A DNA stretch of 64,000 bases, from positions 806,001 through 870,000 of the forward strand of contig NZ_QXNY01000002.1 in assembly GCF_003572205.1 (NCBI RefSeq). Reading direction: 5' to 3'. This DNA is from Algihabitans albus. GTDB lineage: Bacteria; Pseudomonadota; Alphaproteobacteria; Kiloniellales; DSM-21159. Below the pieces are notes generated by a model. That model saw only the letters and a program-made list of their open reading frames with translations, had not been told where the DNA came from and searched no databases. Both the position numbers and the translations under genes were made by a program. This document shows positions 4,713-9,941 of the stretch, piece by piece (positions within the stretch are counted from its first letter, which is position 1; the number at the start of each line of letters is the position of its first letter).

Positions 4713-5966
4713 TCAGCCGGTCTCGTCCGCCGTCGCGTTGGCGCGCTCCAGCATCGCAGCGAGCAGGACGTTGCAGCCGGCCTCCAAGTCGTCCGGCGTG
4801 GCGTTCTCGATCTCGTTGTGGCTGATGCCGTCTTCGCAGGGCACGAAGATCATCCCGGTGGGCGTCACCTTGGAAAGGTAGATGGCGTCGTGGCCGGCAC
4901 CGGAGACCATGCGGCGATGGGAATAGCCGGCGGCCTGCGCGCCGCGCTCCACGGCGTCGACGCAGGCCGGATCGAAGGGCATCGGCGGCAAGGTCCAGAT
5001 CTCTTCGATCTCGAGCTCCAGCTTCGCCGTCTCCGCGATGTCCCGACAGCCCTCGCGCAAGGCCGCGTTCATGCCATCCAGACGCGCCTCCTCGGGATGG
5101 CGCAAATCGACCGTGAACCAGACCTGACCGGGAATGACGTTGCGCGAGTTCGGGCGGTTCACCAGCATACCGACAGTGGCACAGGCATCCGGCTGGAAGT
5201 CGAATCCGATCCGGTTGACCAGTTCCACCATGCGGGCCGCCCCGACCAGTGCGTTGCGGCGTCGGGCCATGGGCGTCGGGCCGGCATGGGCCTCCTGCCC
5301 AGTCACGGTGATTTCGTACCAGCGCTGCCCTTGGCCGCCGGTGACCACACCGATTGTCTTGCCCTCGGCCTCCAGGATCGGGCCCTGCTCGATATGCGCC
5401 TCGAAGTAAGCCCCAATCGGATGCTGGCCCACCGGCTCCGGACCGCGGTAGCCGATGCGCTCCAACTCCTGGCGCACGCTCTTGCCGTCGATATCCTTGG
5501 TTTCCAGGCAGGCCTCCAGATCGAAGTCGCCGACGAAGGCCCCGGACCCGAAGGTGGCCGGCGGAAAGCGCGAACCCTCTTCGTTCGTCCAAACCGCGAC
5601 TTCCATTGGTGCTTCAGTCTCGTAGCCGGCATCGTTCAGGCTTCGCATCACCTCGAGTCCGGCCAGAACCCCATAGACGCCGTCGAACTTGCCGCCGGTC
5701 GGCTGGCTGTCCAGATGGCTGCCCGTCACGATCGGCTTCAGCGCGTCGTTGCGTCCGGGGCGGCGCGCGAAGATGTTGCCGATGCCGTCCACCGTGACGC
5801 TGCAGCCCGCCTCCTCGCACCAGCGCACGAAGAGATCCCGGCTTTCGCGGTCCAGGTCGGTCAGCGCCAGTCGGCAAACACCCCCCTTCGCCGTGGCGCC
5901 GATCCGCGCCATCTCCATCAGGCTGTCCCAGAGACGCTTGCCATCGACGCGCAGATTCTTCTCCAT
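4713..5966 (-). CDS. M20-family N-carbamoyl-L-amino-acid hydrolase / amidase-type Zn hydrolase
   Basis: The protein has 417 aa. It belongs to the M20/M28-fold hydrolases typified by N-carbamoyl-L-amino acid hydrolase, beta-ureidopropionase and allantoate amidohydrolase. The metal-binding segments are clear: GSHLDSQPTGGKFDGVYG (His and Asp), then NEEGSRF with the catalytic Glu pair. An ALVGAARMVE lid/dimerisation region follows, then a late SGAGHDAIYL with the last metal-ligand His. Enzymes of this family release ammonia and CO2 from carbamoyl or ureido groups in pyrimidine, hydantoin or purine breakdown. The exact substrate cannot be read from sequence. I prefer the ATG at 5966 (MEKNLRVDG) over an upstream GTG at 6005. 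It stands alone, with no hydantoinase gene beside it. Confidence 0.82.
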   Translation of the reverse strand: MEKNLRVDGKRLWDSLMEMARIGATAKGGVCRLALTDLDRESRDLFVRWCEEAGCSVTVDGIGNIFARRPGRNDALKPIVTGSHLDSQPTGGKFDGVYGVLAGLEVMRSLNDAGYETEAPMEVAVWTNEEGSRFPPATFGSGAFVGDFDLEACLETKDIDGKSVRQELERIGYRGPEPVGQHPIGAYFEAHIEQGPILEAEGKTIGVVTGGQGQRWYEITVTGQEAHAGPTPMARRRNALVGAARMVELVNRIGFDFQPDACATVGMLVNRPNSRNVIPGQVWFTVDLRHPEEARLDGMNAALREGCRDIAETAKLELEIEEIWTLPPMPFDPACVDAVERGAQAAGYSHRRMVSGAGHDAIYLSKVTPTGMIFVPCEDGISHNEIENATPDDLEAGCNVLLAAMLERANATADETG

Positions 5967-6060: not shown

Positions 6061-6711
6061 ATGCGCATCGTCGAAGGCAAGAAACAGCGCGACCTCTCGC
6101 CGGAGGCCTTCGCCGACTTGGCAAGCGGCTTTGCAGGGATCGCCCTGGACCTCGGCACCGGCGACGGGAGCTTCGTCCTGCGCCGGGCAAGGACGGAACC
6201 GGGCGTGCTCTGCATCGGGCTGGACGCGGTTGCGGAGGCCATGGCGGAGAGCGCCCGCCGGGCGCGGGCCAAACCGGCCAAGGGCGGCGCGGCGAATGCC
6301 CTCTACGTCGTCGCTCGGGCCGAAGATCTGCCGTCGGAGCTGGCCGGGCGCTGCGATGCGATTACGATCAACTACCCTTGGGGATCGCTGCTGAAGGCGG
6401 TGAGCGAACCGCAGCAGGAGGTCCTGGCGGGGATTGCCGCCTGTGCCAAACCCGGCGCGCGGGTCACGCTGCTCATCAACCTCGCGCCCTTCGAGGACCC
6501 GGACCAACGCGACCGTCTGGGCCTCAACGAACTGGACGCGGAGCTGGCGGAACAAAGACTCGGGCCGGCTTACCTGGCCGCCGGCCTGAAGATCGGAAAG
6601 ATCGACCTCCATCTCGGCGAGTTGCCCGAACGGACCTCGTGGGGCCGCAGACTGGTTGTCGGAAGTCGGCGCAAAACACTCGAAATCAAAAGTCAAAAAT
6701 CATATATTTAA
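6061..6711 (+). CDS. KamB/NpmA-like 16S rRNA (adenine-1408-N1)-methyltransferase
   Basis: The protein has 216 aa and a class I SAM-dependent methyltransferase fold. It matches, from memory, the aminoglycoside-resistance enzymes KamB (Streptoalloteichus) and NpmA, which methylate N1 of A1408 in helix 44 of 16S rRNA. The same residue numbers hold as in NpmA: D30 in DLGTGDG, D55, E88 in ARAEDLP, and P106-W107-G108 in NYPWGSLL. The KPAKGGAANALYV stretch (71-83) is shared with KamB. TSW at 192-194 and R204 keep the spacing of NpmA W197 and R207. A1408 methylation blocks kanamycin, apramycin, gentamicin and related drugs. The start is the ATG at 6061, which matches family N-termini; no clear Shine-Dalgarno sequence precedes it. 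The final 20 codons and downstream DNA are strikingly AT-rich. Family confidence is high; activity is untested. Confidence 0.85.
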   Translation: MRIVEGKKQRDLSPEAFADLASGFAGIALDLGTGDGSFVLRRARTEPGVLCIGLDAVAEAMAESARRARAKPAKGGAANALYVVARAEDLPSELAGRCDAITINYPWGSLLKAVSEPQQEVLAGIAACAKPGARVTLLINLAPFEDPDQRDRLGLNELDAELAEQRLGPAYLAAGLKIGKIDLHLGELPERTSWGRRLVVGSRRKTLEIKSQKSYI

Positions 6712-6726
6712 ATTGGTTATTCAGTT

Positions 6727-7845
6727 TTATTCATCTTTTATGAGAGCATTGAAGGCATCGCGCTTCGACAGATGGGTGGTTTCGGCCAGAGCAGCGGCCA
6801 GGGTCTTGGTTGCAACGCCGGCCGCTTGCAGGCGTCTGGCCAGGGCAGCGAGCTTGGAGTCGAGCTGGCCGGCCTCGCCCGGCTCGCACTCCGCCACGAC
6901 CAGCCAGACCTCGCCTTGAGGAAGCGGTGCCTCCGCCAACGCGATCAAGCTGCCGCGGCGCGACTCTTCCTGCGGATCGTTCGGCGCGACGATCAGGACT
7001 GCTTCGCGGTCGCCGACGGTTTTGGCGACCAACGAGAGGAGTCCTTCACCCTGCCCGGCGGGAAGGGGCAGCAGCAGGCCTGCGCCGGAGTCGGCCAGGC
7101 GCGCCAGAAGATCGCGCCGGGCCGGCTTGCCGTTCGGCCAGCGACGCAGACGGCTCCAGGTTTCGGCCGCGAGGCCCGAGAGCGCCCGGGCTCCCTCCGC
7201 CGCACTCCAGCCGCCTACCAAGGTTGCCTGACCGCCGGCCTCCGCCGTGAGCCTCACCGCCTCGGCCTGGAGGCCGAGATCGTCGCTTTCCAGAAGCACG
7301 CGACCGCCCGCCGCTATTTCCCGCAGCAAGCCCTCCAGCCCGCGCGTCAGTCGCAGATCGGCCAAACGCCGGGCGGCAGCCAGCCGTGCATCCTCCCGCC
7401 CGGCCGGCCCCGCAAGAAACAGCGCACCCGCCGGCGCGTGCGCGCCGGTCGGAGAGATCTCCATCTCCAACCGCGCGGTCGAGTCGCTCAGCCCGGCGAT
7501 GAAGTTCCGGTCGAGGTCCGCCGCCCCTTTATCGGCGGCGAAGCCGAAGGTGCGGCGGGTGAGCGGCAAGGTCCGGCGGCGTAAGATCAAGGGCTCACCC
7601 GGCAGCCAAGCCGGATTGAGGGTCGCCCGCAGGTGCTGCGTCATCCCTTGGCAGGTCAAAGTCAGCTCGACCGCCCCCCGCAGACCCGCCACGGCGTCCA
7701 TATCGCCCTCCAGGGCGACACCCAGGACACAGGTGCCGCGCGGGCTCAGATCCGCCTCGGGAACCAGTTCGAGAGTCTTGGAATGGCTGGCCCTGACGTT
7801 GGGATGGCCGCGGGCGGTCAGAATCGGGCCGGAGGGTGCGTGCAT
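6727..7845 (-). CDS. DUF371 protein fused to a degenerate RsmI-like domain
   Basis: The protein has 372 aa in two parts. Residues 8-132 fit DUF371, known mainly from archaea: [16 protein letters not shown] at 11-26 and [12 protein letters not shown] at 33-44. Residues of about 140-372 resemble, by eye, the 16S rRNA C1402 2'-O-methyltransferase RsmI. The segment at 207-225 (ending ARALSGL) matches the RsmI stretch after its SAM loop, [11 protein letters not shown] matches its late strand, and THLSKRDAF at 357-365 matches its C-terminal helix-turn-helix. The RsmI active-site signatures (SDAGTP and EDTR types) are missing; SDDLGLQ replaces the former at 187-193. It may therefore bind RNA or SAM without classical catalysis. 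The start is the ATG at 7845. It is convergent with the A1408-type methyltransferase (15 nt apart) and divergent from rpsL. The function is unknown. Confidence 0.7.
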
Positions 7846-7881: not shown

Positions 7882-7910
7882 TTGATCTGGCGCCCTGGAT
7901 CGGCTACATG
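7882..7910 (+). promoter_or_regulatory. Candidate sigma-70-type promoter of the solitary rpsL
   Basis: TTGATC at 7882-7887 and TACATG at 7905-7910 are separated by exactly 17 nt and lie about 38 nt upstream of the rpsL ATG. The -35 is a fair match and the -10 is weak. It sits in the 102-nt divergent gap shared with the DUF371 gene. Confidence 0.3.
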
Positions 7911-7947: not shown

Positions 7948-8319
7948 ATGCCCACGATTAATCAGTTGATCCGCAAGCCGCGTAAAGACAAGACCGGCGC
8001 GGGTCGCAGCCTCGGCCTGGAAAACAACCCGCAGCTCCGCGGCGTCTGCACGCGCGTCTACACCGTGACGCCGCGTAAGCCGAACTCGGCGCTGCGCAAG
8101 GTCGCGCGCGTGCGCATGACCAACGGTCACGAGATCACCGCCTATATCCCCGGCGAGGGCCATAACCTGCAGGAGCACTCCGTGGTGCTGGTGCAGGGCG
8201 GCGGCCCGAACGACCTGCCCGGCGTCTACTTCCGCGTGGTGCGCGGCGCGCTGGACACCCAGGGCGTCAAGGACCGCAAGCAGAAGCGTTCCCGCTACGG
8301 CGCCACGCGCCCGAAGTAA
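7948..8319 (+). CDS. rpsL: Divergent, solitary 30S ribosomal protein S12
   Basis: The protein has 123 aa and aligns without gaps to bacterial S12. It keeps the N-terminus [15 protein letters not shown], the core [13 protein letters not shown] (44-56), [11 protein letters not shown] (69-79), LPGV (90-93) and GVKDRKQ (106-112). It departs from the family at positions that are almost invariant: Arg43 instead of Lys and Asn88 instead of Lys. Residues 86-88 read GPN where RVK is usual, 94-96 read YFR, residue 30 is Leu not Lys, and the 16-27 loop is unlike normal S12. Lys43 and Lys88 are the classical sites of streptomycin-resistance changes. Asp89, the RimO target, is kept. No rpsG, fusA or tuf follows, so this is probably a second copy outside the str operon. 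A strong terminator ends it. Confidence 0.93.
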
Positions 8320-8540: not shown

Positions 8541-9941
8541 TCACCCCACCGGAAGACGCGTCGCCCAGAAATCGTACTCGTCGGCGTGATCGATGCGCAC
8601 CGGGACGATGTCGCCCGGCTTCAGATCGGTCTCGCCCTGCAGGAAGGTGATCCCGTCGACCTGCGGGGCATCCCATTCGGTGCGGCCGATGGCGCCCTCC
8701 TCATCCACTTCGTCGACGATCAGACTTGTCGTGCGGCCGACGCGCTTGGCCAGCGCGCGGGTGGAGATCTCCTGCTGCTTCAGCATCAGCCGCTCGTAGC
8801 GCTGCTGCTTGACCTCTTCCGGCACCGCGTCCGGCAGGTCGTTGGCACGGGCGCCCTCCACCGGCTCGTAGCGGAAGCAACCGACGCGCTCGATCTCCGC
8901 CTCCTCCAGCCAGTCGAGCAGAAACTCGAAATCCGCGTCGGTCTCGCCGGGAAAACCGACAATGAAGGTCGAGCGGATGGCGATGTCGGGGCAGACCTGC
9001 CGCCAGCCCTTGATGCGGTCCAGCACCTTTTCCTGGTTGGCCGGGCGGCGCATGGTCTTGAGCACGTTGGGACTGGCATGCTGAAAGGGAATGTCCAGGT
9101 AGGGCAGGATCTTACCCTCAGCCATCAGCGGAATGAGCTGATCGACGTGGGGATAGGGATAGACGTAGTGCAGCCGCACCCAGGCGCCCAGTTCGCTGAT
9201 CCGGCCAAGCCCCTCGCAGAGATCCTTGATTCGCGTCCGATAGTCGACGCCGTGCCAGCTGCGCGGATCGTACTTGGTGTCGAGCCCGTAGGCGGAGGTA
9301 TCCTGGCTGACCACCAGCAGCTCGCGCACCCCCGTCCGCACCAGCCGCTCCGCCTCGCTCAGGACCTCGTCGACGGGCCGACTGACCAGATCGCCGCGGA
9401 TCGACGGGATGATGCAGAAGGAACAGCGGTTGTTGCAGCCTTCAGAGATCTTCAGATAGGCGTAGTGGCGCGGCGTGAGCTGCACGGCGGAAGGCGGAAC
9501 CAGGGAGGTGAAGGCATCCTGCTTCAGCGGCAGCGCCTCGCGCACGGCCGAGACCACCTGCTCGTACTGCTGCGGCCCGGTGATCGCCAGCACCTCCGGA
9601 TGCGCGGCCATGATCCGCTCCGGCTCGACCCCCAGGCAACCGGTCACGACCACACGCCCGTTCTCCGCCACAGCCTGTCCAATGGCCCCCAGGGACTCTT
9701 CCTTGGCGGAGGTCAGGAAGCCGCAAGTGTTGACCACCACCAGATCGGCGCCGGGCACGTCGGCCACGATCTCGTACCCCTCGGCGCGCAGGCGGGTCAG
9801 AATCCGCTCGGAATCCACCAGCGCCTTGCCGCAGCCCAGAGAGATGAAGCCGACCTTGCCGCCGTCTCGCCCGAGCGTCGAGTCGGAGCCGCCGCCGGGG
9901 GTGAAGCTCGGGGTCACGCGGTCGGCCGTCTGGCTGGTCAT
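8541..9941 (-). CDS. rimO: Ribosomal protein S12 methylthiotransferase RimO
   Basis: The protein has 466 aa and is a radical-SAM methylthiotransferase that adds a methylthio group to the conserved Asp89 (Asp88 in mature numbering) of S12. The N-terminal MTTase domain has the three [4Fe-4S] cysteines C37 ([12 protein letters not shown]), C73 (NTCGF) and C102 (TGCLG). The radical-SAM triad is C169-C173-C176 in [10 protein letters not shown]. The C-terminus ends in a TRAM domain. The subfamily marker SLGCxKALVDSE separates it from MiaB. It lies next to, and convergent with, the divergent rpsL whose product is the substrate class. The same enzyme may also serve the normal S12 encoded elsewhere. 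Confidence 0.94.

Follow-up and report, generated by a model that had tools for sequence, protein, structure and literature searches.

A candidate decoding-centre island in Algihabitans albus: a Kam/NpmA-family 16S rRNA methyltransferase gene, a DUF371/half-RsmI gene and a relocated, variant rpsL

A 64,000-nucleotide stretch of the Algihabitans albus genome (NCBI RefSeq assembly GCF_003572205.1, contig NZ_QXNY01000002.1, positions 806,001 to 870,000, forward strand; hereafter the window) carries, side by side, a gene for a Kam/NpmA-family 16S rRNA (A1408-N1) methyltransferase, a gene for a protein that joins a DUF371 domain to half of an RsmI-like domain, and a variant gene for ribosomal protein S12 (rpsL*, product S12*) lying outside the str operon (Table 1). 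Here, we propose, with a probability of roughly two in three, that this island rebuilds the decoding centre and yields a ribosome insensitive to both the 2-deoxystreptamine aminoglycosides and streptomycin. The anatomy of the island was observed directly and comprises membership of the methyltransferase in the family, the presence of A1408 in 16S rRNA from the genus, the order of the genes, a single S12 gene found, the departure of rpsL from the str operon, and purifying selection. That S12*, the DUF371 protein and the methyltransferase are functionally co-adapted, and not adjacent by chance, has in our judgement about even odds. If the proposal is correct, drug-insensitive decoding centres can evolve as assembled units, pairing rRNA methylation with a matching S12, beyond single mutations or single acquired enzymes, and a transferable variant can take the place of an essential ribosomal protein. 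Among the matches listed in a search of titles and the beginnings of abstracts in the open-access literature, there was no description of a Kam-rsmI operon, of a relocated natural rpsL, or of an island with a relocated, diverged S12.

Genomes and searches

The window's own genome (G000) was compared with its genus mates (G001 and G002), with same-family genomes (G003, G004, G005, G007 and G009), with a relatives sample of 98 genomes (the window's own included) and with a class sample of 385 genomes. Neighbourhoods were read at 20 Kam loci (the window genus, counted once; G005; L087 to L097; and L114 to L120). Profile cut-offs were 60 bits (PF24675), 112.65 bits (TIGR00091), 167.9 bits (TIGR00096), 112.95 bits (TIGR00981) and 357 bits (TIGR01125).

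Results

The first-pass annotation, made from the letters of the window and its open reading frames (ORFs), had proposed a chromosomal alphaproteobacterial methyltransferase of the KamB/NpmA family, and that identification was borne out. PF24675 (NpmA) spans residues 2 to 211 of 216 (222.5 bits, E = 5.1e-66; Pfam search), and the NCBIfam models NpmB, WarA, KamB and NpmA match at E values from 3.7e-44 to 2.5e-25, all under their curated cut-offs; the protein is therefore a family member, yet none of the named enzymes. The seven residues named at the outset all match NpmA in a 28-row alignment that left out the sequences of NpmC and WarA: D30, D55, E88, P106 and W107 share NpmA's numbering, while W194 and R204 correspond to its W197 and R207. 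An AlphaFold2 model (predicted local distance difference test [pLDDT] score, 90.8) aligns with NpmA at a Z score of 30.1 over 215 residues, with Z scores of 26.8 to 30.1 across NpmA, KamB, NpmB1, CacKam and Kmr and of 21.5 against UncKam; identity by structural alignment is 40% to NpmB1, 36% to KamB and 30% to NpmA. The gene lies on a 1.11-Mb contig of a genome that is 99.3% complete, and G001 (one contig, 4.6 Mb) has the same locus, matching chromosome CP030885.1.

Neither an Rfam model nor a pattern search located 16S rRNA in the assembly that holds the window, and the target base was therefore read in the genus mate G001, where both 16S copies carry A1408, together with G1405 and ordinary bases at 1491 to 1494 and 912 to 915. 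At position 906, the second of these copies (L058) reads G against A in the other copy and in the relatives, possibly an assembly error. The 6061-6711 product is an intrinsic chromosomal member of the A1408 methyltransferase family and very probably methylates that base. In the tree built from the 28-row alignment it pairs with its G001 counterpart (support, 100/100), and the backbone holding Kmr and NpmB did not resolve. Between G000 and G001, the gene has a nonsynonymous divergence (dN) of 0.19 and a synonymous divergence (dS) of 1.0, with 75% protein identity, and its GC content, overall and at third codon positions (GC3), resembles that of its neighbours.

Three genomes of the genus share this arrangement of methyltransferase gene, DUF371 gene and rpsL*, the G002 contig breaking inside the methyltransferase gene. 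S12* of the window carries the changes K43R, R83Q, R86G, V87P, K88N, R94Y, Y95F and H96R; the S12* clade as a whole differs from 64 other distinct S12 sequences by K30L, K43R, R83Q, R86G, V87P, K88N and H96R, by R94Y or R94S, by Y95F or Y95H, and by an altered loop at residues 19 to 23. R86G, V87P and K88N each occur in 0 of those 64 sequences and, with K43R, fall at or beside classic streptomycin resistance sites. For Escherichia coli, excerpts of PMC13390409 give streptomycin minimum inhibitory concentrations of >32,768 mg/liter for each of K43N and K88R and of 64 mg/liter for R86S, and an excerpt of PMC4494058 lists 43R among resistance alleles. The altered positions coincide with those of such point-mutant rpsL alleles (K43R, K43N, K88R and R86S), and on these grounds a ribosome built with S12* is likely to be streptomycin insensitive; unlike the alleles, S12* is a diverged clade (branch length, 0.89), relocated, the only copy found, and common to the three genus genomes.

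A single S12 match was present in G000 and likewise in the one-contig G001. Their str operons were read directly, and the gaps between rpoC and rpsG (about 540 bases in G000 and about 590 bases in G001) hold no similarity to S12. In same-family genomes, rpsL lies between rpoC and rpsG (G003) or adjoins rpsG (G004 and G005); no rpsG match was found in G002. G004 has two rpsG genes, on contigs C26 and C106. In the class sample, 340 of the 385 genomes gave an S12 match, and among the matches listed (down to E = 2.5e-54) only those of G000 and G001 were >74% identical to S12*. Comparison of G000 with G001 shows rpsL* to be under strong purifying selection (dN, 0.020; dS, 0.39; compare rpsG with 0.026 and 0.66). 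The promoter-like block ahead of it is kept in all three genus genomes and is a putative promoter of rpsL*.

Table 1. Features of the island and its RimO neighbour (window positions)
Feature	Position	Strand	Basis and remarks
Kam/NpmA-family 16S rRNA (A1408-N1) methyltransferase gene, 216 amino acids	6061..6711	+	PF24675 profile, residues, model; start ATG at 6061, stop at 6711 (ORF read in window)
DUF371 domain plus decayed half RsmI-like domain, 372 amino acids	6727..7845	-	PF04027, E = 6e-15; convergent with methyltransferase gene
Promoter-like block TTGATC, 17 bases, TACATG, ahead of rpsL	7882..7910	+	Three-genome intergenic alignment
rpsL, variant S12*	7948..8319	+	TIGR00981, 196.6 bits, over cut-off
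RimO, S12 methylthiotransferase	8541..9941	-	TIGR01125, 554 bits; convergent with rpsL

RsmI is the C1402 2'-O-methyltransferase and acts on the same 16S helix (helix 44, h44) as that of A1408. The model of the 6727-7845 product (pLDDT, 81.9) aligns with the DUF371 structures 7y7n (Z, 17.3) and 3cbn (Z, 17.0) and, over residues 213 to 322, with the second half of E. coli RsmI (5hw4; Z, 17.2); its best Foldseek match is 9pzg, RsmI bound to the 30S subunit. Foldseek rmsd values for the whole model were disregarded, as they superpose both domains together. The second half of the RsmI fold, as found in free or DUF371-fused RsmI, is thus kept. Unlike RsmI, the window protein is without much of the first half and the S-adenosylmethionine (SAM)-binding motif, whose region, present in the DUF371-RsmI fusions described below, is gapped or changed in the alignment. 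An active C1402 enzyme was considered and rejected on the profile score (TIGR00096, 11.9 bits), and an intact RsmI is encoded elsewhere in the genome (G000 contig 11). The protein may be a noncatalytic factor that docks on the 30S subunit or pairs with RsmI.

From these parts, the following mechanism can be envisaged. The methyltransferase would bind the assembled 30S subunit, with A1408 of h44 flipped between W107 and W194, and would methylate its N1 with SAM, so barring kanamycin, neomycin and apramycin. The half-RsmI protein, its SAM-binding half lost, may just dock on or near h44. An S12 variant would have been acquired or remade outside the str operon, the replacement of K43, R86 and K88 conferring streptomycin insensitivity, with RimO as its likely partner. 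S12 loops reach h44, h18 and h27, and the decoding centre would be altered from three sides: A1408 in h44, the S12 loops, and perhaps, by way of the half-RsmI protein, the C1402 region. Excerpts of PMC12406665 describe ArmA as disturbing RsmI at C1402, NpmA as disturbing RsmF at C1407, and KamB as raising accuracy in E. coli, and contain no report of a Kam effect on C1402 itself. Since methylation in this region is thus known to affect both fidelity and nearby modifications, it is plausible that a partner would adapt the ribosome to m1A1408.

Kam genes elsewhere keep similar company. An RsmI-type gene lies close to Kam at 10 of the 20 loci (L089, L090, L092, L093 and L114 to L119) and directly adjoins it in nine of these, one gene intervening at L089. 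The L089 locus (Parerythrobacter) has, between Kam and its fusion gene, an opposite-strand ORF (L089:5683-6213) that by eye resembles a SpoU/TrmH-type RNA methyltransferase. Parerythrobacter lacustris RS5-5, recorded as a strain, encodes Kam and a DUF371-RsmI fusion separated by one gene. At L114 to L119, from six class-sample genomes, RsmI follows Kam on the same strand with 12 to 75 bases between the aligned parts, and there Kam and the genome's only over-cut-off RsmI form an apparent rRNA modification operon. The RsmI near Kam is the sole over-cut-off RsmI in 9 of the 10 genomes; G101 carries a second, and G104 and G102 have extra matches under the cut-off. RsmI is fused to DUF371 at L089, L090, L093, L114 and L115 (four confirmed by Pfam, L115 by matches to both models within a single open frame), and in L089, L090 and L093 the RsmI part passes the TIGR00096 cut-off. 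In a Solirubrobacteraceae bin (L092), the order is rpsL, rpsG, DUF371 protein, methyltransferase (other strand), RsmI and fusA (ORF list and tblastn), which places Kam and DUF371 within a str operon whose S12 is ordinary.

DUF371 was found in 4 of the 385 class genomes, all 4 of which have the methyltransferase, adjacent each time. The probability of such co-occurrence by chance is 1.4e-7 when genomes are counted and 4e-4 when genera are counted, the latter being the fairer figure because the four genomes represent two genera; among 14 control genomes, only three archaea had DUF371 matches. In several Alphaproteobacteria, intrinsic Kam genes thus share an apparent operon with the sole rsmI found in the genome, which recasts these enzymes and points to a native role in tuning h44.

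RimO, encoded next to rpsL* in the window, methylthiolates D89 of S12, a residue that S12* retains; RimO was found in 8 of 20 genomes tested. Sixty-eight plasmid records bear an S12, and one of these proteins is >80% identical to S12*, namely that of Indioceanicola profundi NZ_CP030127.1 (82.9%). It has the same TVTPRKPN signature, the same second 10-letter stretch and a position directly after RimO, and differs in that NZ_CP030127.1 has no Kam match. S12 of the genus and of Indioceanicola forms one clade (support, 100/100) in a 68-row tree of just 123 columns whose bootstrap had not settled, and RimO of the same organisms forms one clade (100/99) in a 9-row tree without an outgroup, with RimO of the same-family G004, G007 and G009 outside. 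Taken together, the two sequence trees fit a putative joint transfer. A search of viral contigs for the S12* signature gave one match, by chance, inside a phage tape-measure-like ORF. We tentatively suggest that a travelling S12 variant, moving with RimO, replaced the native rpsL and joined the A1408 methyltransferase and an h44-docking half-RsmI protein, and that the result would be a genus-wide decoding centre binding neither drug class.

Alternative explanations

Several observations count against an island that works as a unit. The parts occur apart, G005 having the methyltransferase with an ordinary S12 and the Indioceanicola plasmid the S12*-RimO pair without a methyltransferase match, and RimO lies about 32 kb from rpsL* in G001, so that this pair, too, can separate. 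DUF371 was not found in the available flank at 13 of the 20 Kam loci, and the DUF371 gene is the fastest evolving of the three island genes (G000 versus G001: dN, 0.39; dS, 1.08). The S12 search gave no match at all in 13 of 58 relatives, so that either it or the assemblies can miss one and absence by search alone is weak; the basis of the claim that rpsL was lost is therefore the direct reading of the two str operons. K43R also occurs outside the S12* clade, in L154 (G417, with K88S) and L105 (G109), G417 not being among the nine class genomes with a Kam match and G109 carrying the Kam homologue L097, and is therefore not specific.

These facts lend some weight to the explanation that the window holds an ordinary intrinsic Kam methyltransferase whose altered S12 and DUF371 neighbours share no function with it: each part is known without the others, and G001 shows rearrangement downstream of rpsL*. 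We consider it improbable, since the three-gene order has been kept in three genomes while the methyltransferase diverged to 75% identity, all four DUF371 genes of the class sample adjoin the methyltransferase (P of about 4e-4 by genus), and a lone methyltransferase leaves the departure of rpsL from the str operon unexplained. A housekeeping role, in which Kam and RsmI as a pair tune decoding through h44 (at C1402 and A1408) and insensitivity to drugs is a side effect, is somewhat less improbable and draws on the six class-sample genomes with same-strand Kam then RsmI or DUF371-RsmI, the only over-cut-off RsmI there, and on the accuracy gain reported for KamB (PMC12406665, in excerpt). It sits poorly with the patchy spread (9 of 385 genomes), with the decayed RsmI half beside Kam and the intact RsmI elsewhere in the window genus, and with the nine of 20 loci (G005, L087, L088, L091, L094 to L097 and L120) at which no RsmI-like gene was found in the available flank; moreover, the reported interference with RsmI at C1402 concerns ArmA, a G1405 enzyme, NpmA blocking RsmF (C1407) instead (PMC12406665, in excerpt).

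Two further explanations concern the methyltransferase itself. The first-pass annotation had named the tRNA m7G46 methyltransferase TrmB as the family to distinguish it from by alignment and phylogeny; both were run and speak against TrmB. TrmB, or another class I methyltransferase, has the class I fold in common, and TrmB models and structures do score as distant relatives, but the figures make this identity scarcely credible: TIGR00091 gives 20.7 bits (under its cut-off) against 222.5 bits for the NpmA profile, bacterial TrmB entries reach Z scores of 15.7 to 16.9 against 26.8 to 30.1 for A1408 methyltransferases, E. coli TrmB lies far outside in the tree (end branch, 10), and all seven A1408 residues are present. 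A recently mobile resistance gene passing through the genome is very unlikely as well. A scattered phylogenetic distribution and an integrase-core ORF after rpsL* in G001 would suit it; the same locus in three genomes, the 75% identity of the G001 protein to that of the window, the neighbour-like GC and GC3, and the absence of any methyltransferase match among 72,556 plasmid records, 50,697 phage records or the viral contigs scanned speak against it.

Mobility and distribution of the family

The earlier expectation that no mobile element lies nearby was borne out across the 28 window ORFs that were searched with Pfam (8 at E values up to 1 or 0.001 and 20 at E values up to 1e-8), in which no plasmid, transposon or phage domain was found. 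In G001, the methyltransferase gene has an integrase-core ORF 1.9 kb away. This ORF (L065:10303-11370; rve, transposase-like) directly follows rpsL*, at the place that RimO occupies in the window. The suggestion that the gene is a reservoir or ancestor of mobile resistance was not supported: it is 30 to 40% identical to the mobile NpmA and NpmB1, no mobile gene groups with it in the tree, although the backbone around NpmB is without resolution there, and neither the plasmid nor the phage collection gave a match.

With the solved Kam members (KamB, NpmA, NpmB1, Kmr, CacKam and UncKam), the window enzyme shares PF24675, the fold (Z, 21.5 to 30.1) and the equivalents of D30, D55, E88, W107, W194 and R204. 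Unlike them, it is 24 to 40% identical to these proteins by structural alignment, intrinsic and chromosomal, and stands beside a DUF371/half-RsmI protein gene and a variant rpsL.

The family had been described at first as limited to aminoglycoside producers and rare mobile genes, a limit contradicted by Kmr (from a myxobacterium), CacKam, UncKam and the class genomes with a Kam match (9/385, G000 and G001 among them). In the relatives sample, matches over the cut-off occurred in 4 of 98 genomes, three of the genus plus the same-family G005 (50% identity). An excerpt of PMC4705659 counts eleven family members in 2015, the myxobacterial Kmr included. The 14 loci from one scan of named genomes were spread over Alpha- and Gammaproteobacteria, Solirubrobacteraceae, Verrucomicrobia and Chlamydiae, with a bin labelled Euryarchaeota besides. 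A Kam enzyme encoded on an alphaproteobacterial chromosome is therefore uncommon, not unique.

Kam genes at four other loci (L087:5001-5651; L088 and L091, both 5001-5660; and L094:1950-2620) have two in-frame stops just ahead of the SAM motif. In L087, L088 and L091, both stops are TGA, and Trp would fit well at each place, which hints at genomes in which TGA encodes Trp; in the L094 gene, a stop remains under code 4.
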